Source: Candidatus Poribacteria bacterium (GTDB lineage Bacteria > Poribacteria > WGA-4E > WGA-3G). From it: DNA of 64,000 bases. The stretch is taken from NCBI GenBank assembly GCA_026706025.1, contig JAPOZO010000063.1, positions 310,001 to 374,000 on the forward strand, given 5' to 3'. A program made the translations under genes and the position numbers. Below are positions 41,958-63,461 of the stretch, piece by piece. The notes below the pieces were generated by a model. It did not search any database. It was not told the origin of the DNA and saw nothing but the letters and a program-made list of their open reading frames with translations. Within the stretch, counting starts at the first letter, position 1; each line of letters opens with the position of its first letter.

Positions 41958-42893
41958 GTGAGAAAAACATCACAAATGAATTCCCGGAACCCGAAAAAAT
42001 TTAAACCTATACCCGCGAAATTCATCATCGGAATCCTCATGATCCTTTTTGCTATCACCGGATGCTCCGATATGCCTTATACCGGATCAAACCCAACAGT
42101 TTTTGAGGTAAACCGCTATCTCGTCTCAACGGACGGTGAATCCGTCTGTTTTCAGGGTGATATCGACGCAACCTGTATAAGGCTTATACCTGAAACACAG
42201 AACACTGTAGATGCAAATAGCCGCCCTGCCGTCTATATCTATCCAGAAAGGCGCGTCTATATGCTTTATCATGAAGGGGCACCTATCTTGCGTGCAGAAA
42301 GAGCACAGATTGTACCAACACCCCCAGATACACAAGGAAACACATCAGCCGATGACCCCTCAACGCCTAACGGACAAACAGGAAATAATAACGGCAATAA
42401 CGGCAATAACAATAACGGTGGCGGCAATAACAACAACAATAATAACGGTGGGGGCAATAACGGCAATAACAACAACAATAATAACGGTGGCGGCAATAAC
42501 GGCAATAACAATAACAATGGTGGGGGTAATAATGGGGGCGATGACGCAGAGCAGACGAATGGTGGGAATAACAATAATGGCGATCCGTCTAATAATAACG
42601 ATGATGGACACGGATGGATTATTTGGGTATATTACCCAGAAGGGGCATCTCCCCCAAATGCACCGACACTTAGCGAGAGCGGCGTAACAGTTACCATAAA
42701 TGGGAGTCGACTAACAGATGAAGATATAGCAGGTTTCGCCCAATTCATTGGCAGCGCTGGCGAAAGAGGCGTTCAATTTTTCTATCCAACTGAGTCCGCG
42801 GAATTGTTAGACCTAAAGATCCGAATCGAAGGCGTCGTCAGTGATGATGAAACCGTCAAATTCAACATAAATTACTTATGGAACTCGCAATAA
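41958..42893 (+). CDS. Lipoprotein, paralogue 2, with Asn/Gly-rich linker
   Basis: This 311-residue lipoprotein (lipobox AITGC) parallels paralogue 1: DMPYTG, SVCFQGDIDATCIRL, a HGWIIWVYYPEG segment and a C-terminal sheet domain. Between the two domains it has about 70 residues almost wholly Asn and Gly, encoded by repeated AAC/AAT/GGN codons. The start GTG 41958 has AGGAG at 41946-41950. The linker is absent from paralogue 1 and likely grew by slippage. It ends 12 bases before a convergent SDR gene. Function is unknown. Confidence 0.78.
   Translation: MRKTSQMNSRNPKKFKPIPAKFIIGILMILFAITGCSDMPYTGSNPTVFEVNRYLVSTDGESVCFQGDIDATCIRLIPETQNTVDANSRPAVYIYPERRVYMLYHEGAPILRAERAQIVPTPPDTQGNTSADDPSTPNGQTGNNNGNNGNNNNGGGNNNNNNNGGGNNGNNNNNNNGGGNNGNNNNNGGGNNGGDDAEQTNGGNNNNGDPSNNNDDGHGWIIWVYYPEGASPPNAPTLSESGVTVTINGSRLTDEDIAGFAQFIGSAGERGVQFFYPTESAELLDLKIRIEGVVSDDETVKFNINYLWNSQ
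42380..42540 (+). repeat. Low-complexity Asn/Gly codon repeat
   Basis: Imperfect units such as GGTGGCGGCAATAACGG and AACAACAATAATAACGG repeat four to five times. The repeat keeps the reading frame and encodes the linker of lipoprotein 2; the reverse-strand Leu/Pro-rich frame is a shadow. Confidence 0.9.
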
Positions 42894-46330: not shown

Positions 46331-46470
46331 ACTTATCGGTTTTCAGTACGGATTTTTTTTCGCAAAAAAATCCTTTCGGTTTTCGGTTAAGAGGGTTCTT
46401 GTGTCGGTTATAGATTGTATCACTGCCAGAAAGGACTCTTAACCGTTAATCGACAACTGATAACCATTAA
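46331..46470. repeat. F1 palindromic repeat with central hairpin
   Basis: TATCGGTTTTCAGTAC is followed by a central hairpin (GGATTTTTTTT-CGC-AAAAAAATCC) and by the right arm CGACAACTGATAACC, which precedes the ribosome site of the first hydrolase gene. The same central hairpin occurs in copies at 51720, 62230 and inside the dagK-like gene. Confidence 0.75.
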
Positions 46471-46481
46471 AGGAGAGTGGA

Positions 46482-47789
46482 TTGAAGATATTAATGTGTG
46501 CGTCATTACTACTGTTTTTCGGCACGACACTTGCATCCGGACAAGAACTTCCCATGGCTGTGCCGGAGGCGGTCGGTGTCTCCACCGAACGTCTTGAACG
46601 TATCCGTCCTGTGATGCAAGGCTATATTGATGACGGACGTATAGCAGGGCTCCTGACCGCCGTGGCACGACGCGGAAAAATCGTTCATTTTGAAACCGTC
46701 GGCATGCGAGATATTGAAAACAACAAACCCATTGAAGCGGACACAATATTTCGTATCCACTCCATGTCAAAACCGATTACCAGTGTCGCAGTCATGATGC
46801 TCTATGAAGAGGGACATTTTCAACTCAATACACCCGTGTCCGAGTTCATCCCTGAATTTAAAAACATGAAGGTCTACAACGCGGACCAGACGGAAATCTT
46901 GGATGCGAAGAAAGAGGTAACGATCAAACACCTTCTCACGCATACCGCAGGGTTAACCTATGGCAGGGGCAGCGAACCGGTTGATAACCGCTATAGGGGA
47001 GCGAACCTTTTTCAGCCCGGTACAACACTCGCAGATTCGATGAAGAAACTCAGCGAGATTCCCCTCGTTCACGAACCGGGTAAAAGGTGGACCTATGGGT
47101 TATCTACCGATGTCCTCGGCTACCTCGTTGAGGTGGTTTCCGGTATGCCGTTTGAAGAATTTCTCCAAACCCGTCTCTTTAAACCGATCGGGATGGTTGA
47201 TACCGCATTTTCAGTGCCTTTAGAGAAGTTGGACAGGTTTGCCGCACTCTATCAACTTCACAAAGAAGGGTGGATGAAAGGTGATAAAGAGAAAGAAAAA
47301 AAGACGGACGGTGCTAAAGAAAAGGGGATCGAAGGCGATAAAGACCGAAAAATGAGGTTGGAACGTATTGAGAAAGATCCACCCCTCAAGAACGGTGAGG
47401 TCCGTTTCTTTCCAGGGGGTGGTGGTAAACTCCTCTCAACGGCACCAGACTATATGCGGTTTTGTCAGATGTTGCTCAACGGCGGCGAACTCGAGGGTGT
47501 CCGCATATTGAAGCAGGAAACGGTTGAACTGATGTGCTCCCCACATCACGATACTTGGTTCGGACTCGGTTTCGCTATTGTTACCGATAAAAAGGAGTCA
47601 ACCGACGATAAAGAACCAAAAGGCACGCCGGAATCAACAGGAAGTTACAGTTGGGGCGGTGCCGCTGGTACCACCTTCTGGATTGATCCCGAAAAGGAGT
47701 TGATCGGTCTGCTCATGACGCAGATCAGTGATGTCTCCTCTTCCCACGATCAATTTAAGAAACTAACCTATCAGGCACTAACCGAGTGA
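46482..47789 (+). CDS. Secreted class-C beta-lactamase-like serine hydrolase 1
   Basis: The 435-residue protein has a signal peptide (ending near TLASG) and a serine beta-lactamase/DD-peptidase/esterase fold. The nucleophile motif S-x-x-K is SMSK at 94-97, the tyrosine motif is in WTYGLSTD, and the third motif region reads SWGGAAGT. It carries an extra Lys/Glu-rich insert (about 265-305, KGDKEKEKKTDG) absent from the paralogues. TTG at 46482 with AGGAGAG is the start, as in the next two genes. Activity could be esterase or peptidase; a true beta-lactamase is less likely. Confidence 0.87.
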   Translation: MKILMCASLLLFFGTTLASGQELPMAVPEAVGVSTERLERIRPVMQGYIDDGRIAGLLTAVARRGKIVHFETVGMRDIENNKPIEADTIFRIHSMSKPITSVAVMMLYEEGHFQLNTPVSEFIPEFKNMKVYNADQTEILDAKKEVTIKHLLTHTAGLTYGRGSEPVDNRYRGANLFQPGTTLADSMKKLSEIPLVHEPGKRWTYGLSTDVLGYLVEVVSGMPFEEFLQTRLFKPIGMVDTAFSVPLEKLDRFAALYQLHKEGWMKGDKEKEKKTDGAKEKGIEGDKDRKMRLERIEKDPPLKNGEVRFFPGGGGKLLSTAPDYMRFCQMLLNGGELEGVRILKQETVELMCSPHHDTWFGLGFAIVTDKKESTDDKEPKGTPESTGSYSWGGAAGTTFWIDPEKELIGLLMTQISDVSSSHDQFKKLTYQALTE

Positions 47790-47800
47790 AGGAGAATGAA

Positions 47801-49003
47801 TTGAAAAAATTAACGTATATATCTTTATTACTTTTCTTCATCGCCTCGTTCGCTTTTGGACAAGGGCTGCCGATGATAGTGCCAGAAGAGGTAGGTGTTT
47901 CTGCCAAACGGCTGAAACGCATTCGCTCTCTCCTGCAAGGTTACTACAATTCAGGACAAGTCTCCGGATTCCTAACAGTCGTGGCACGACGCGGGAAGAT
48001 TGTCCATTTTGAAACCATCGGCATGCGAGATTTTGAAAATAGCAAACCTATTGAACCGGATACGATCTTCCACATCTACTCTATGTCAAAACCCATTACC
48101 AGTGTTGCTGTGATGATGCTCTATGAGGAGGGGCATTTTCAACTCGGCACGCCTGTTTCCAGGTTTATCCCTGAGTTTGAGAACATGAAGGTCTACAATG
48201 AAGACCAGACCGAAATCTTGGACGCAAAGAAGAAGATAACCATCAAGCATCTTCTCATGCATACTGCTGGACTCACTTACGGTTGGGGCAATAAACCGGT
48301 CGATACACTCGATAGGGAGGCAAAAATCCGGGAACCCGGTTCAACCTTGGCGGATATGGTCAAAAAACTCGGGAACATTCCCCTCGTTCACGAACCCAAT
48401 GAAAAGTGGACCTATAGTGTCTCTACTGATGTGCTTGGTTACCTTGTAGAGGTTGTATCTGGCATGCCTTTTGAGGAATTTCTCCAAACACGGCTCTTTG
48501 AACCCCTCGGTATGGTTGACACCGGATTTTCAGTACCCCCTGAGAAACGAGATAGGCTTGCCACACTCTATAGACGCACAAAAGAGAATGGAATTGAACG
48601 GACGAAACGAGCTGCGATCCCAGATGATGAATTCACGTTTTTCCCCTCCGGCGGTGGCGGACTCGTCTCAACCGCTGCGGATTATATGCGCTTTTCTCAA
48701 ATGTTGCTCAACGGTGGTGAACTCGACGGTGTCCGCATATTGGGCAAAAAGACAGTTGAATTGATGCGCTATCCCCATCACAACAATCGGTTTGGACTCG
48801 GTTTCGGAATTGTTACTGATAGAAACCCACCGAACATTTTGGAGTCCGTTGGAAATTTCAGTTGGGGCGGTGCTGCCGCTACCACCTTCTGGATTGATCC
48901 GCAGGAGGAATTGGTCGGTTTGCTCATGACACAACTCCTCAATAACCGCTACCCTTTCCGACAGCAATTTAAAGTCCTAACCTATCAGGCACTCACCGAA
49001 TAA
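47801..49003 (+). CDS. Secreted class-C beta-lactamase-like serine hydrolase 2
   Basis: The protein (400 residues) starts at TTG 47801 (AAGGAG upstream), the equivalent of the start in genes 1 and 3; an upstream GTG in frame would overlap the ribosome site. A signal peptide ends near SFAFG. SMSK is at 94-97, with WTYSVSTD and SWGGAAAT following. It is very close to gene 3, with blocks such as FFPSGGGGLVSTAADYMRF identical. It lies 11 bases after gene 1, so these are co-transcribed. Confidence 0.87.
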   Translation: MKKLTYISLLLFFIASFAFGQGLPMIVPEEVGVSAKRLKRIRSLLQGYYNSGQVSGFLTVVARRGKIVHFETIGMRDFENSKPIEPDTIFHIYSMSKPITSVAVMMLYEEGHFQLGTPVSRFIPEFENMKVYNEDQTEILDAKKKITIKHLLMHTAGLTYGWGNKPVDTLDREAKIREPGSTLADMVKKLGNIPLVHEPNEKWTYSVSTDVLGYLVEVVSGMPFEEFLQTRLFEPLGMVDTGFSVPPEKRDRLATLYRRTKENGIERTKRAAIPDDEFTFFPSGGGGLVSTAADYMRFSQMLLNGGELDGVRILGKKTVELMRYPHHNNRFGLGFGIVTDRNPPNILESVGNFSWGGAAATTFWIDPQEELVGLLMTQLLNNRYPFRQQFKVLTYQALTE

Positions 49004-49085
49004 CACTTGTCATCAAGGGGTTGTAAGGGAAATTGATGCCGCTCTAACTGACAATTATTAAGGTGAATTATAAAAGGAGAATGGA

Positions 49086-50294
49086 TTGAAAAGATTAACG
49101 TTCGCATGTTTACTACTTCTCTGTATGACTACACTCGCATTCGCGCAAGGGCTTCCGATGGCAATACCAGAGGCGGTTGGTGTTTCCGCCGAACGTCTTG
49201 AACGTATCCGTCCTGTGATGCAAGGTTATGTCGATGACGGAAGCCTATCGGGATTTCTAACGGTCGTAGCACGACGCGGAAAGATTGTCCATTTTGAAAC
49301 CATCGGTATGCGAGATATTGAAAGTGAAAAACCGGTTGAACCCGATACGATATTCCGTATCTACTCCATGTCAAAACCGGTTACCAGTGTCGCTGTAATG
49401 ATGCTTTATGAGGAGGGACACTTTCAACTCGGCACGCCAGTCTCCAGATTTATCCCTGAATTTAAAAATATACAGGTCTACACCGAGGATCAGACGGAAA
49501 TATTAGATGCGAAGCAGCCCATTACAATCAAGCATCTCCTCATGCATACCGCAGGGTTAACTTATGGTTGGGGCAATAAACCTGTTGATGAACGCTATAA
49601 AGCGGCGAAAATTTTTGAACGCGGCACGACGTTGGTGGACATGGTGAAGAAACTCGGCGATATCCCGCTCGTTCACGAACCCGGTGAAAGGTGGACCTAC
49701 GGAGTCTCCGTTGATGTACTCGGTTATCTCGTGGAGGTTGTATCTGGTATACCGTTTGAAGAATTCCTCCAAACCCGTCTTTTTAAACCGCTTGGTATGG
49801 TGGACACTGCATTTTCAGTACCGCCGGAGAAGGTGGACAGATTTGCGGCACTGTATCGGCATAACAGAAGAGAGGGGATGATGAAACGCGTAGGTGACGA
49901 TGCACCACTCGCTAACGATGCAGTCAGTTTTTTCCCATCCGGCGGTGGCGGACTTGTCTCAACTGCTGCGGATTACATGCGCTTTTCTCAGATGTTGCTC
50001 AACGGTGGTGAACTTGATGGAGTCCGCATATTAGGGAAGAAAACGGTTGAACTGATGCGCTATCCGCATCACGATGATTGGTTTGGACTCGGTTTCGCGG
50101 TTGTTACGGACAAGGAACCGCCAAACATTCTGGAGTCGGTAGGGAATTTCAGTTGGGGCGGTGCCGCCGCTACCACCTTCTGGATTGATCCGCAAGAGGA
50201 ATTGATCGGCTTGCTCATGACACAACTCCTCAATAACCCTCACCCGTTCCAACAACAATTTAAAGTCCTAACCTATCAGGCACTCACGGAATAA
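49086..50294 (+). CDS. Secreted class-C beta-lactamase-like serine hydrolase 3
   Basis: The 402-residue protein uses TTG 49086 with AAAAGGAGAATGGA upstream, has a signal peptide (ending near LAFAQ), SMSK at 94-97, WTYGVSVD and SWGGAAAT. Its close identity to gene 2 points to a recent duplication. Extracellular hydrolysis of esters or peptides is inferred from the family; the substrate is unknown. Confidence 0.87.
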   Translation: MKRLTFACLLLLCMTTLAFAQGLPMAIPEAVGVSAERLERIRPVMQGYVDDGSLSGFLTVVARRGKIVHFETIGMRDIESEKPVEPDTIFRIYSMSKPVTSVAVMMLYEEGHFQLGTPVSRFIPEFKNIQVYTEDQTEILDAKQPITIKHLLMHTAGLTYGWGNKPVDERYKAAKIFERGTTLVDMVKKLGDIPLVHEPGERWTYGVSVDVLGYLVEVVSGIPFEEFLQTRLFKPLGMVDTAFSVPPEKVDRFAALYRHNRREGMMKRVGDDAPLANDAVSFFPSGGGGLVSTAADYMRFSQMLLNGGELDGVRILGKKTVELMRYPHHDDWFGLGFAVVTDKEPPNILESVGNFSWGGAAATTFWIDPQEELIGLLMTQLLNNPHPFQQQFKVLTYQALTE

Positions 50295-50295
50295 A

Positions 50296-50510
50296 AGTTG
50301 TCAGTTATCGGTTGTCGGTTAATACTCTGTGGCAGTTCAGTTAATTTGCTTTTCACAACAAACCTCTTTATAGTAGATTCTGTAATTACTTACACACTTA
50401 GCATCGGTTCGGTTAGGAAACCGAACCTACTGGGGGATGAAAGTGTATATTTATTTTTGGAATTTGCTATAACTGACAGCTGATGGCTGATAGCCGAATT
50501 ATAGGAGATA
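50296..50510. repeat. Composite of F1 repeat, REP and GACAGC repeat
   Basis: GTTGTCAGTTATCGGTTGTCGG opens an F1 arm, the REP at 50406-50430 lies in the middle, and CTGACAGCTGATGGCTGATAGCC closes the gap just before hydrolase 4. Confidence 0.6.
50406..50430 (-). repeat. REP-like hairpin, GTAG on the minus strand
   Basis: On the minus strand GTAG leads into GGTTCGGTT, loop TCCT, AACCGAACC. Compared with the copy at 6772 the arms differ at one paired position on both sides, so pairing is kept. Confidence 0.8.
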
Positions 50511-50513
50511 TTG

Positions 50514-51695
50514 ATGGCAATATATGAAGGATTACCGCGAGTTGTGCCTGAAGATGTCGGCATGTCAACTTCGCGGTTGGGACGTATTACACCGGTCATG
50601 CAAGGCTATGTTGATGCCGGAAAAATCCCCTGCGCATTAACAATGATCGCGCGTGAAGGCAAGCTCGTCCATTTTGAAAAATTCGGTATGCAGGATATCG
50701 CCGCCAAACCGATACAATTTGACACCATCTTCCGCCTCTATTCAATGACAAAGCCGATTACCAGCATCGCTGTCATGATGCTCTACGAAGAAGGGCATTT
50801 TCAACTCACCACGCCTGTCTCCGAATTTGTGCCACATTTCAAAGACATGAAGGTTTACACGGAAGATGGTAGTGCTATTGTTGATGCCGAACGTGAGGTG
50901 ACAATAAAACATTTACTCACGCATACCGCTGGACTTATCTATGAAAGCGATAGGGAGGATCACCCGATTGATCAGCAATATGAAGATGCCGATCTCTACG
51001 GCGGCGACCTCGCGAACATGATACAAAAACTCGGAGATATTCCGCTCATTCACCAGCCAGGTGACGCATGGAAGTACGGGATGTCTACCGATGTACTCGG
51101 CTACCTCGTACAAATCGTATCGGGTATGCCGTTTGAGACGTTCTTGAAAACTCGTATTTTTAATCCATTAGGTATGAACGACACCGGTTTTTCAGTGAAG
51201 GTTGAAAATGCTGACCGATATTCAAAGGTATATGAATTCGGGGAAGACGGTGAACTTCAGGCAATTGAGAAAGTCCATGCTGCAACTGGACCCCTGAGTT
51301 TTTTCCATTCTGGTGGTGGAGGCTTGCAATCGACCGCCGCGGATTATCTCCGTTTCTGCCAAATGGTGCTCAACAATGGTGAACTTGATGGTGTACGCCT
51401 GCTCGGAAGGAAAACTGCTGAACTCGTCACGATGAGCCACGTTCCACCCGATTGGTTAGCACCTAAGAGAACCGGTACCGGTTTCGGACTTGGGTTCGCC
51501 GTTGTCACCGATGTCGCTGATACGCACACGGTCGGCTCTTTAGGCACTTGCGGTTGGGGCGGCATGGCAAGTACCACATTTTGGATTGATCCTGTGGAAG
51601 ACTTAATCGGTGTTTTCATGACACAATTGGTCGGTGCCGATTCGCCATTCCAGGCACAGTTCCGGGTCTTAACCTATCAGGCACTCACGGAGTGA
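50514..51695 (+). CDS. Cytoplasmic class-C beta-lactamase-like serine hydrolase 4
   Basis: The protein (393 residues) lacks a signal peptide and begins MAIYEGLPRVVPEDVGMST. SMTK is at 77-80, WKYGMSTD and GWGGMAST follow. ATG at 50514 has a GGAGA site; the TTG three bases earlier is less likely. It pairs with gene 5 in sequence and start type and differs from the three secreted copies, so export was lost or gained within the array. Confidence 0.87.
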   Translation: MAIYEGLPRVVPEDVGMSTSRLGRITPVMQGYVDAGKIPCALTMIAREGKLVHFEKFGMQDIAAKPIQFDTIFRLYSMTKPITSIAVMMLYEEGHFQLTTPVSEFVPHFKDMKVYTEDGSAIVDAEREVTIKHLLTHTAGLIYESDREDHPIDQQYEDADLYGGDLANMIQKLGDIPLIHQPGDAWKYGMSTDVLGYLVQIVSGMPFETFLKTRIFNPLGMNDTGFSVKVENADRYSKVYEFGEDGELQAIEKVHAATGPLSFFHSGGGGLQSTAADYLRFCQMVLNNGELDGVRLLGRKTAELVTMSHVPPDWLAPKRTGTGFGLGFAVVTDVADTHTVGSLGTCGWGGMASTTFWIDPVEDLIGVFMTQLVGADSPFQAQFRVLTYQALTE

Positions 51696-51699
51696 GGAA

Positions 51700-51895
51700 G
51701 TTAACAGTTGTCAGTACGATTTTTTCTACGAAAAAATCTTTCAGTACTCGGTTAGGAGATTTTGGAACTATCGAAAACCTCTTATAACTGATAACTGATA
51801 ACTATTCTTGCGGTTACCTTTCATATTCCGACCACAAGAGACCTCTTTAACTGATAACTCTCACTGCGAGGCAAACCGATAACTGACAACTATCT
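51700..51895. repeat. F1 palindromic repeats, tandem copies
   Basis: An arm with the central hairpin (GATTTTTTC-TAC-GAAAAAATC) is followed by two right arms (CTGATAACTGATAACTA at about 51785 and CGATAACTGACAACTA at about 51870). The gap between hydrolases 4 and 5 is nearly all repeat. Confidence 0.75.
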
Positions 51896-51909
51896 CATAG
51901 GAGTTTTTA

Positions 51910-53088
51910 ATGACCTTATATGAAGGATTACCGCGGGCTGTTCCTGAAGATGTAGGTATGTCAACCTCGCGATTAGAACGCATCGCTCCGGTCATGCAAC
52001 ACTATGTTGACGACGGTAAAATCCCCTGCGCTTTAACGATGATCGCGCGTGAAGGCAGACTCGTCCATTTTGAAAAATTCGGCACGCAAGATGTCGCTAC
52101 TGCGAAACCCGTGGAATTTGATACCATCTTCCGCATCTACTCGATGACGAAACCGATTACCAGCATCGCCGTCATGATGCTCTACGAGGAGGGGCATTTC
52201 CAGCTCGGCACACCCGTCTCTGAATTGATTCCCGCTTTCAAGGATATGCAGGTTTACACTGAAGGTGGCGAGGCGATTGTTGATGCTGAGCGAGAGATGA
52301 CCATAAAACATCTGCTCACACATACCGCTGGAATTATCTACGGTGGCGATTGGGAGCATCCGATTAATGAGCGGTATAGAGCAGCGAATTTCTACGGCGG
52401 CGACCTCGCAAATATGGCGCAAGAACTCGGAAATATCCCGCTCCTTCACCACCCGGGTGATGGATGGAACTACGGGATGTCTACCGACGTACTTGGCTAT
52501 CTCGTGGAGGTGGTATCAGGAATGCCGTTTGAGGAATTTTTGAAAACCCGAATCTTAAATCCATTAGGTATGCATGATACCGCTTTCTCAGTGCCGGACG
52601 AAAAGGCTGATAGATATGCGACATTATATGAACCCACAGAAGACGGTGGTATTCAAGTAATTGAGAATGCACCTGTTTCGAGCGGACCCTTGAGTTTCTT
52701 CCATTCTGGTGGCGCAGGTTTACAATCGACCGCCGCGGATTATCTCCGCTTCTGTCAAATGTTGCTTAACGATGGTGAACTCGATGGCGTGCGATTGCTC
52801 GGAAGCAAAACCGTTGCGCTCATCCGAATGAATCATATCTCTGACGATTGGCAACCCCTTGAGAGAACCGGATGCGGCTTCGGACTCGGATTTGCCGTTG
52901 TCACCAACGTCGCCGATACCAATAGCCTTGGTTCTGAAGGCACTTACAGTTGGGGCGGTCTGGCGAGTACGACATTTTGGATTGACCCTGTGGAGGACCT
53001 CATCGGCATTCTGATGACACAACTGATCGGTGATTCGCCATTCCACGCCCAATTCCGGGTCCTCACCTATCAGGCAATTACGGATTAG
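51910..53088 (+). CDS. Cytoplasmic class-C beta-lactamase-like serine hydrolase 5
   Basis: The 392-residue protein starts MTLYEGLPRAVPEDVGMST without a signal peptide. SMTK is at 78-81, with WNYGMSTD and SWGGLAST following. AGGAG lies before the ATG at 51910. It is the closest relative of gene 4 and ends the five-gene array. Its job inside the cell cannot be told; esterase-type (EstB-like) chemistry is the most common in this group. Confidence 0.87.
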   Translation: MTLYEGLPRAVPEDVGMSTSRLERIAPVMQHYVDDGKIPCALTMIAREGRLVHFEKFGTQDVATAKPVEFDTIFRIYSMTKPITSIAVMMLYEEGHFQLGTPVSELIPAFKDMQVYTEGGEAIVDAEREMTIKHLLTHTAGIIYGGDWEHPINERYRAANFYGGDLANMAQELGNIPLLHHPGDGWNYGMSTDVLGYLVEVVSGMPFEEFLKTRILNPLGMHDTAFSVPDEKADRYATLYEPTEDGGIQVIENAPVSSGPLSFFHSGGAGLQSTAADYLRFCQMLLNDGELDGVRLLGSKTVALIRMNHISDDWQPLERTGCGFGLGFAVVTNVADTNSLGSEGTYSWGGLASTTFWIDPVEDLIGILMTQLIGDSPFHAQFRVLTYQAITD

Positions 53089-62222: not shown

Positions 62223-62440
62223 TTATCAGTACGATTTTTCTGCGAAAAATCTTTCGGTTATCAGTTATAGGACTTACGCATTTCGTCTTAAAGTCCCCCT
62301 GATAAGGGGGATTTAGGGGGTTTAAAGGGCTAAATTACCGCTTTTTGCGTCCTAAATACCTGATATTCGCTCAATTTGCGTAAGTCCTGAGTTACAAGAG
62401 TCCTCTTAACTGAAAACTGAGTACTGACAACCGACAACTA
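62222..62440. repeat. F1 palindromic repeat interrupted by a MITE-like element
   Basis: The left arm with the central hairpin (GATTTTTC-TGC-GAAAAATC) runs to about 62268, and the right arm resumes after 62388 (CTTAACTGAAAACTGAGTACTG). The MITE-like element sits between them. Confidence 0.7.
62269..62388. mobile_element. MITE-like element, 120 bp, with 12-bp terminal inverted repeats
   Basis: AGGACTTACGCA at 62269-62280 and TGCGTAAGTCCT at 62377-62388 are perfect inverted ends. The inside carries CCCCCTGATAAGGGGG and GATTTAGGGGG and no coding frame. A clear target duplication is not seen. It is probably moved in trans by a transposase not in this window. Confidence 0.7.
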
Positions 62441-62444
62441 TTCA

Positions 62445-63461
62445 ATGAACGACTTTATTCTCATCGCAAACCCAATCTCCGGCAAGGGACATGCTAAGAA
62501 TGTTGCTGAGCAGGGCTACGCTGCCCTTACCGAATCCGGACAGCACGGACAACTCGTATTGACTTCGGCATCTGGCGACGCAAAACGTTTCGCACAAGAA
62601 GCCGTTGCTAATGGAACTCGGTACGTAATTGCTTGCGGGGGTGATGGAACGCTCCACGAAGTGGTGAATGGTATCGCGATGGCTCCAGATGTAACCTTGG
62701 GTGTTCTCCCGTGCGGGCGCGGCAACGATTTTGCCGCAGCGGTTGGTATCCCACTGAAGCCTGAAGCGGCGATCGCAACCCTCTTATCTGGCACCCCTAT
62801 CCGTGTAGATTTGGGACGTTGCTATCAGAATAGTCCTCAGTTAACAGTTAACAGTCATCAGTTAAAGACGGATTTGTTAAACGAAAATCCGTTACCGACA
62901 ACCGACAACCGACAACCGACAACTATCTCCTCTGATAACCGACAACCGACAACTGACAACTATTTCACCACCATTGCGACTTGTGGTTACGATACGGAAG
63001 TCAGCCGCCGCGCAGCCAAAGGCACACCCCTATTTGCTGGCACTGCCTCCTACGCCTATGCAGCTGTAGAGACGCTGTTCTACTACGATCCGCCGACTGT
63101 ACGTCTTGAAGGCGATTTTGGTACTTATGAGGGACCACTCCTCCTCGCCGCTACCGGCATCACAAGTCGCTACGGTGGCGGGTTTCAGATTGTCCCGGAT
63201 GCACGTATTGATGATGGACTTTTCGATGTCTGTATCGTCCGACCCGTTTCCTCTTTGACAGTACTCCGACTCTTAGTAACACTTTTCTGGGGCGGTCATG
63301 TCGGACACCCCGCCGTATCCATGCACCAGACCCGGACTTTAAAGATTGAAACCGATCCACCCATGCTGTTATATGCTGATGGCGAACCGATGTGCGAAAC
63401 ACCTGCCACAATTGAGATCATCAAGGGCGGATTAACTGTGATGGCACCGCGTGGCACGTAA
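62445..63461 (+). CDS. Diacylglycerol/sphingosine kinase family protein with repeat-derived insert
   Basis: The 338-residue protein belongs to the DagK/YegS lipid kinase family, which phosphorylates diacylglycerol or related lipids at the membrane. The N-terminal nucleotide-binding part shows ANPISGKGHA, CGGDGTLHEVVNG and LPCGRGNDFA; the C-terminal part shows YGGGFQIVPDARIDDGLFDVCIV and YADGEP. Residues about 130-172 (from SPQLTVNSHQLK to RQPTTDN) are encoded by an F1 repeat inserted in frame between two beta strands. The ATG follows the right arm of another F1 copy, without a clear ribosome site. Confidence 0.88.
   Translation: MNDFILIANPISGKGHAKNVAEQGYAALTESGQHGQLVLTSASGDAKRFAQEAVANGTRYVIACGGDGTLHEVVNGIAMAPDVTLGVLPCGRGNDFAAAVGIPLKPEAAIATLLSGTPIRVDLGRCYQNSPQLTVNSHQLKTDLLNENPLPTTDNRQPTTISSDNRQPTTDNYFTTIATCGYDTEVSRRAAKGTPLFAGTASYAYAAVETLFYYDPPTVRLEGDFGTYEGPLLLAATGITSRYGGGFQIVPDARIDDGLFDVCIVRPVSSLTVLRLLVTLFWGGHVGHPAVSMHQTRTLKIETDPPMLLYADGEPMCETPATIEIIKGGLTVMAPRGT
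62832..62966 (+). repeat. F1 palindromic repeat inserted in frame in a coding sequence
   Basis: CAGTTAACAGTTAACAGTC and the central hairpin ACGGATTT-N8-AAATCCGT are followed by several CCGACAACCGACAAC units and CAACTGACAACTATT. About 129 bases (43 codons) add to the kinase without a stop or frame change. Confidence 0.85.

Follow-up and report, generated by a model that had tools for sequence, protein, structure and literature searches.

In-frame palindromic repeats in a lipid kinase and other enzymes of a Poribacteria genus

Palindromic repeats that code for protein are most familiar from Rickettsiales, and on this basis selfish DNA has been argued to have a general part in creating new protein segments. 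The Rickettsia palindromic elements (RPEs; Ogata 2000, 2002, summarised in PMC10969869) are palindromic repeats of ~100-150 nt belonging to several unrelated families. Nearly half of them lie in frame in unrelated genes, and the RPE peptide is tolerated by the host protein (PMC10969869). TAACTGA direct repeats have been described from Beggiatoaceae, Cyanobacteria, and Bacteroidetes (MacGregor 2015, PMC4679880). Their forward copies are held to stop all reading frames, and most in-gene copies fall either in hypothetical proteins or at the ends of a protein (PMC4679880). Poribacteria, which are sponge symbionts, do not appear in the main text of MacGregor (2015). The literature searched, which lacked most subscription journals, contained no report of such elements in Poribacteria.

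The Poribacteria element described here resembles RPEs in that it is a repeated palindrome, with a median length of 137 nt for intergenic copies, and lies in frame in unrelated conserved genes for which insert-free orthologues are known. It differs from RPEs in its phylum, in the inverted heptad arrays around interchangeable hairpins, and in modules which nest in or replace each other at one site. A preliminary description of the locus had pointed to Rickettsia palindromic elements. The comparison is apt for behaviour, but it is an analogy; the phylum is unrelated, relatedness is not shown, and we do not claim RPE membership. With the TAACTGA repeats, the Poribacteria heptad shares the TAACTGA/TCAGTTA unit, the tandem arrangement, the high copy number, and a mostly intergenic location close upstream of start codons, and its reverse orientation reads LSVISYQ. 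Unlike those repeats, the inverted arms can be read in either orientation within conserved enzymes; the forward arm is readable because CCGACAA replaces CTGATAA. The element is also short, palindromic, high in copy number, and non-autonomous-looking, as are MITEs and the REP elements associated with Y1 transposases (RAYT), and Y1 transposases are present in the genome, but neither a target-site duplication nor a consistent association with a Y1 gene was found. Rickettsia-like behaviour in a distant phylum can be followed here over 38 genomes: some orthologues are filled and others unfilled, replacements are nested, and several families unrelated to each other share one site. This set permits testing how genes acquire the elements, why these are tolerated, and whether function is ever gained.

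The window is the whole 64,000-nt stretch of DNA analysed, from a Candidatus Poribacteria genome. The host gene is an open reading frame for 338 amino acids without internal stop (Table 1). Pfam assigns DAGK_cat to residues 4-126 and YegS_C to residues 179-333, and leaves the segment between them unassigned. The protein scores above the cut-off of TIGR00147, and its closest fold match is DgkB (2qv7, E 6e-26), with YegS (2bon) also matching. The preliminary description had claimed a complete F1 element with its central hairpin inside a dagK-like ORF, without stop or frame shift. Both claims held, as the arms and the 9-bp hairpin are read directly and the frame is open throughout. Its estimate of ~43 added residues, 130-172, was about right.

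Table 1. Positions of the lipid kinase gene, the parts of its element, and related features. Unprefixed positions refer to the window; G000 is the genome of the window.
Feature	Position	Strand	Basis
YegS/DgkB/BmrU-type lipid kinase gene, host of element	62445..63461	+	ORF, Pfam DAGK_cat + YegS_C, TIGR00147, fold match DgkB 2qv7
Whole in-frame insert, residues ~127-172, flanked by ...VDLGRC / YFTTIATCGYD	62823..62960	+	alignment of relatives
Heptad-arm/hairpin/heptad-arm element, residues ~132-172	62838-62959	+	direct reading
Left arm, four heptads CAGTTAA CAGTTAA CAGTCAT CAGTTAA	62838..62865	+	direct reading
Central hairpin, 9-bp stem gacggattt / aaatccgtt, 9-nt loop	62867..62893 (stem 62867-62875 with 62885-62893)	+	fold z = -2.85
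Right arm 1, four CCGACAA heptads (stop-free variant of CTGAYAA)	62895..62922	+	direct reading; CCGA/CTGA counts
Right arm 2, after spacer: CTGATAA CCGACAA CCGACAA CTGACAA	62932..62959	+	direct reading
Intergenic heptad/hairpin-family copy directly upstream of kinase start codon, split by MITE-like element 62269-62388	62223..62437	.	direct reading; census
CarA, TlyA inserts	G000:C56:162721-163962 (L189), G000:C56:232199-233164 (L192)	not given	own genome
L-aspartate oxidase NadB, penicillin-binding protein 1C inserts	G000:C56 ~123492 (L191), G000:C63:210907 (L190)	not given	own genome

CCGA accounts for 50% of heptads (155/310) in the two non-stop phases of in-gene copies, versus 22% (20/91) in intergenic tandem heptads. 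This difference is free of circularity, but the phase test of CTGA versus CCGA is otherwise circular in part; the ORFs were chosen as open, so the stop phase necessarily lacks in-frame CTGA. The MITE-like element of ~120 bp that sits within the intergenic heptad element upstream of the kinase has the ends AGGACTTACGC/GCGTAAGTCCT.

The close relatives come from publicly available genomes and are MAGs of Candidatus Poribacteria. Every same-genus kinase orthologue with an intact site (31/31) has an insert of 18-61 residues, counted from the residue after DLGx, with a length divisible by three and no stop. At this site, order-level relatives have 5 residues (DLGKIGDHYF / DLGKIGDHYFDTI) and family-level relatives have 8-10 (DLGKIYSAERGTHYF or similar). 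The alignment thus confirms an insert that order- and family-level kinases lack. Its junctions are not clean: a few native linker residues are replaced, and no target-site duplication is visible. It is likely that the insertion predates the genus, and thus it is not recent. The preliminary description would have been refuted by homologues free of F1 repeats with a similar segment at this point. Such homologues were not seen; the same-genus segments of similar length are other repeat families, and true outgroups have none.

The inserts are of several types. F1 heptads with the ACGGATTT hairpin are found in the window genome (G000), G029, G011, and G007, and F1 with a core of the TTAAAAGG..CCTTCTTTAA type in G001, G035, G022, and G006. 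Heptads surround a TGGAAGG/CCTTCCA hairpin in G005, G016, G019, and G009. In ten species, heptads accompany an unrelated core of ~89 nt (F2), nested in this loop and coding ARNEMEGGSTER..LTEPQG, and short ISESRP forms or remnants are seen in some orthologues. The MEGGSTE core of F2 is itself repeated, with dozens of listed matches in each of three genomes. This indicates that two unrelated repeat families share one kinase loop in different species, both in frame. A related record, L097, keeps only CYRQPATGSYF with degraded heptads, which is probably a deletion remnant. Two other matches, L043 and L046, were dropped, as these copies have stops and lie outside genes. Kinase inserts are also present in the single-contig assemblies G005, G010, G021, and G028, and in G018 (3 contigs), which argues against an assembly artefact. 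Related Poribacteria kinases with ~60% identity (L114 and L115) have an insert of another kind, without heptads, at this point, which suggests that insertions are generally tolerated in the turn.

AlphaFold2 with 42 homologues gave a mean pLDDT of 86. The sole long stretch of low confidence (pLDDT<50) is 132-168, between strands 117-128 and 172-181. The insert is therefore predicted to be an unstructured, floppy surface loop, a disordered turn in the model. Residues invariant over the 42 sequences (GGDGT 65-69, N94, D95, D122, D257, and E314) are all present, and thus the kinase looks intact. The pN/pS of 0.07-0.14 in the flanks indicates purifying selection on the kinase, and that of the insert is 0.35-0.60. 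Tolerance of the element as a surface loop and its neutrality or near-neutrality for the kinase are inferred. There is no protein-level evidence that the loop is translated and kept.

One alternative is that selection maintains the loop for a function in the kinase of this genus, for example as a partner- or membrane-binding segment, and that its origin from a repeat is incidental. All genus orthologues whose site is intact retain the loop, consistent with this, and pN in the insert is lower than pS in the flanks, so that its nucleotides are not drifting at the neutral rate. However, sequence, length, and repeat family vary freely between species, AlphaFold2 gives no structure, L097 retains just its short remnant, and the pN/pS of the insert is far over that of the flanks. 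We consider a functional loop unlikely. A pure neutral passenger also meets a difficulty. Within insert codons 136-165, synonymous divergence was 0.07-0.2 in comparison with ~0.3-0.5 in both flanks, in three orthologue groups. The reduction relative to both immediate flanks is 2-5 times. This result rests on small counts and a simple method. Neutral drift does not predict such a reduction; homogenisation by other copies or constraint at the nucleotide level may be responsible.

Another alternative is that the insert is removed from mRNA or protein, like an intron, a bypass element, or an intein, and never affects the kinase. The strong hairpins could recall bypass elements, and some composite copies fold with z as low as -5.9, in a TlyA module. 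Removal at the RNA level would need neither a stop-free sequence nor a length divisible by three, yet all 31 orthologues have both. Intein families had no match in the kinase in Pfam and TIGR searches, and Rfam gave no match near threshold in the insert region. This alternative is very unlikely.

The insert DNA belongs to a repeat family. Against its own genome, the best non-self match has E = 6e-15, and 56 matches, self included, are at E <= 0.01. The heptad pattern CYGAYAACYGAYAACTRWY has 294 sites in the 6.27-Mb genome, versus 0 for the reversed control. All genomes of the genus (38/38) contain 8-294 sites each. Heptads are near-absent in the 36 other genomes, at 0-11 sites in six same-family genomes of other genera and 0-5 elsewhere. 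The reversed control of this comparison gave 0-1. The heptad expansion is limited almost wholly to one Poribacteria genus.

The census of heptad clusters covered one 400-kb contig, not the whole genome. Only 6 of its 43 clusters are within called ORFs, though called ORFs make up 89% of the sequence, so that in-gene insertions are strongly under-represented. The 27 intergenic copies with a length of 70 nt or more have only 10 open frames out of 162, and 8 of these copies have a length divisible by three. Since a random copy would rarely pass in frame, the in-gene copies are filtered survivors. The ORF-based search finds open frames by construction, and thus disrupted genes are under-counted. 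At window positions 46466-53088, there are five tandem paralogous ORFs of ~1.2-1.4 kb each, some of them separated by heptad elements. A low-complexity tandem repeat (AATAACGGC...) coding Asn/Gly lies inside an ORF at 42387-42553.

Transposition-like spread of the element is inferred. No transposase for it was found, and the filled and unfilled CarA and TlyA sites show no clear target-site duplication, though inverted arms are present. The expectation for a REP/RAYT system, that elements flank the Y1 gene, is not fulfilled, as heptads are present in the fetched flanks of only 1 of 5 Y1 genes, ~0.7-1.3 kb away.

It is also conceivable that no mobile element is involved. Replication slippage within a loop under little constraint would then have generated the heptads on the spot, as would also have happened in intergenic DNA. 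Heptad number and flavour differ between orthologues, and the short forms of TlyA seem to have lost the sequence between heptads and kept QNS footprints, both in favour of slippage. However, hairpin cores and whole modules are shared by unrelated loci (QLKxDLLNxN in the kinase, CarA, and a TamB-like protein), and the F2, TGGAAGG, and TTGACCAA...TTGGTCAA modules are found in different genes or at many loci. Slippage alone cannot yield an identical non-heptad core at many loci, and this origin is unlikely.

The preliminary description had stated that all other large copies are intergenic. This is true within the window and false for the rest of the same contig and genome. The kinase insertion is not unique; many enzymes hold similar in-frame inserts. 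Hosts were surveyed by a peptide search of the genus with one frame-specific query and reading of the matches, and thus the counts are lower bounds, biased to one frame. The own genome of the window has such inserts in at least CarA, TlyA, NadB, and PBP1C, whose families were confirmed. In sister species, in-frame inserts are found in RNase J, PdxA, RecG, the TamB-like protein, and a beta-propeller protein, and near the N-terminus in transketolase, a BamA-like protein, and an ABC ATPase. The QLKxDLLNxN frame common to the kinase, CarA, and the TamB-like protein is one for which the peptide query itself selects.

The CarA linker is filled in 16 same-genus species and native and uninterrupted in 13 (e.g., YAWQHQENNNVDPKYRVVALDFGIK). 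Same-genus TlyA orthologues include 20 long and 8 short forms, and some short ones (QQNSHYDII, QQNSRQPTTDNHLDII) resemble in-frame deletions between heptads that leave a QNS footprint. Two more hairpins occur in TlyA inserts, a second with the sequence AAAGGTTTTTCGCAGAAAAACC and a third with TTGAC..CTCG..CGAG..GGTCAA (z -5.9). Their location varies between species, and the frame is kept each time. In a tree of the kinase, CarA, and TlyA flanks, insert types follow phylogeny only partly, which makes it likely that inserts have been gained, lost, and replaced and that alleles have been exchanged.

The explanation that we consider likely is a composite palindromic element inserted in the genus ancestor, tolerated in a kinase loop, and then remodelled. 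The element is built of TAACTGA-type heptad arms that flank a hairpin in inverted orientation, and its heptads have multiplied to hundreds of sites in the genus. It would have entered the turn between two beta strands of the DgkB/YegS-type lipid kinase and would persist because one open frame reads through, adding only a flexible loop and leaving the catalytic residues untouched. Later remodelling would proceed by gain or loss of heptads and by other repeat families nesting in the loop or replacing its content, each time by a multiple of three. Many other enzymes of the genus would have received such peptides by this process as well. A bolder reading, which remains possible, is that the loop is a refillable docking site, with unrelated palindromic families continually swapped in frame where certain surface turns of conserved enzymes accept them time after time. 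The exchange could occur by gene conversion or nested insertion from a genome-wide repeat pool. This reading would explain why synonymous divergence in the loop is 2-3 times lower than in the flanks although its content is wholly different between species. If it is correct, repeat elements still supply new protein variation to the genus through refillable loops.

The second repeat family (MEGGSTER..LTEPQGKIK; L342, L346, and L349) includes ATG and AAGGA. In L342, around positions 205-291 (G026:C77), it seems to supply the N-terminal end of a protein resembling epimerases (MEGGSTERNVKLETDLTEPQGKIKKALVTGGAGFMGAHV).
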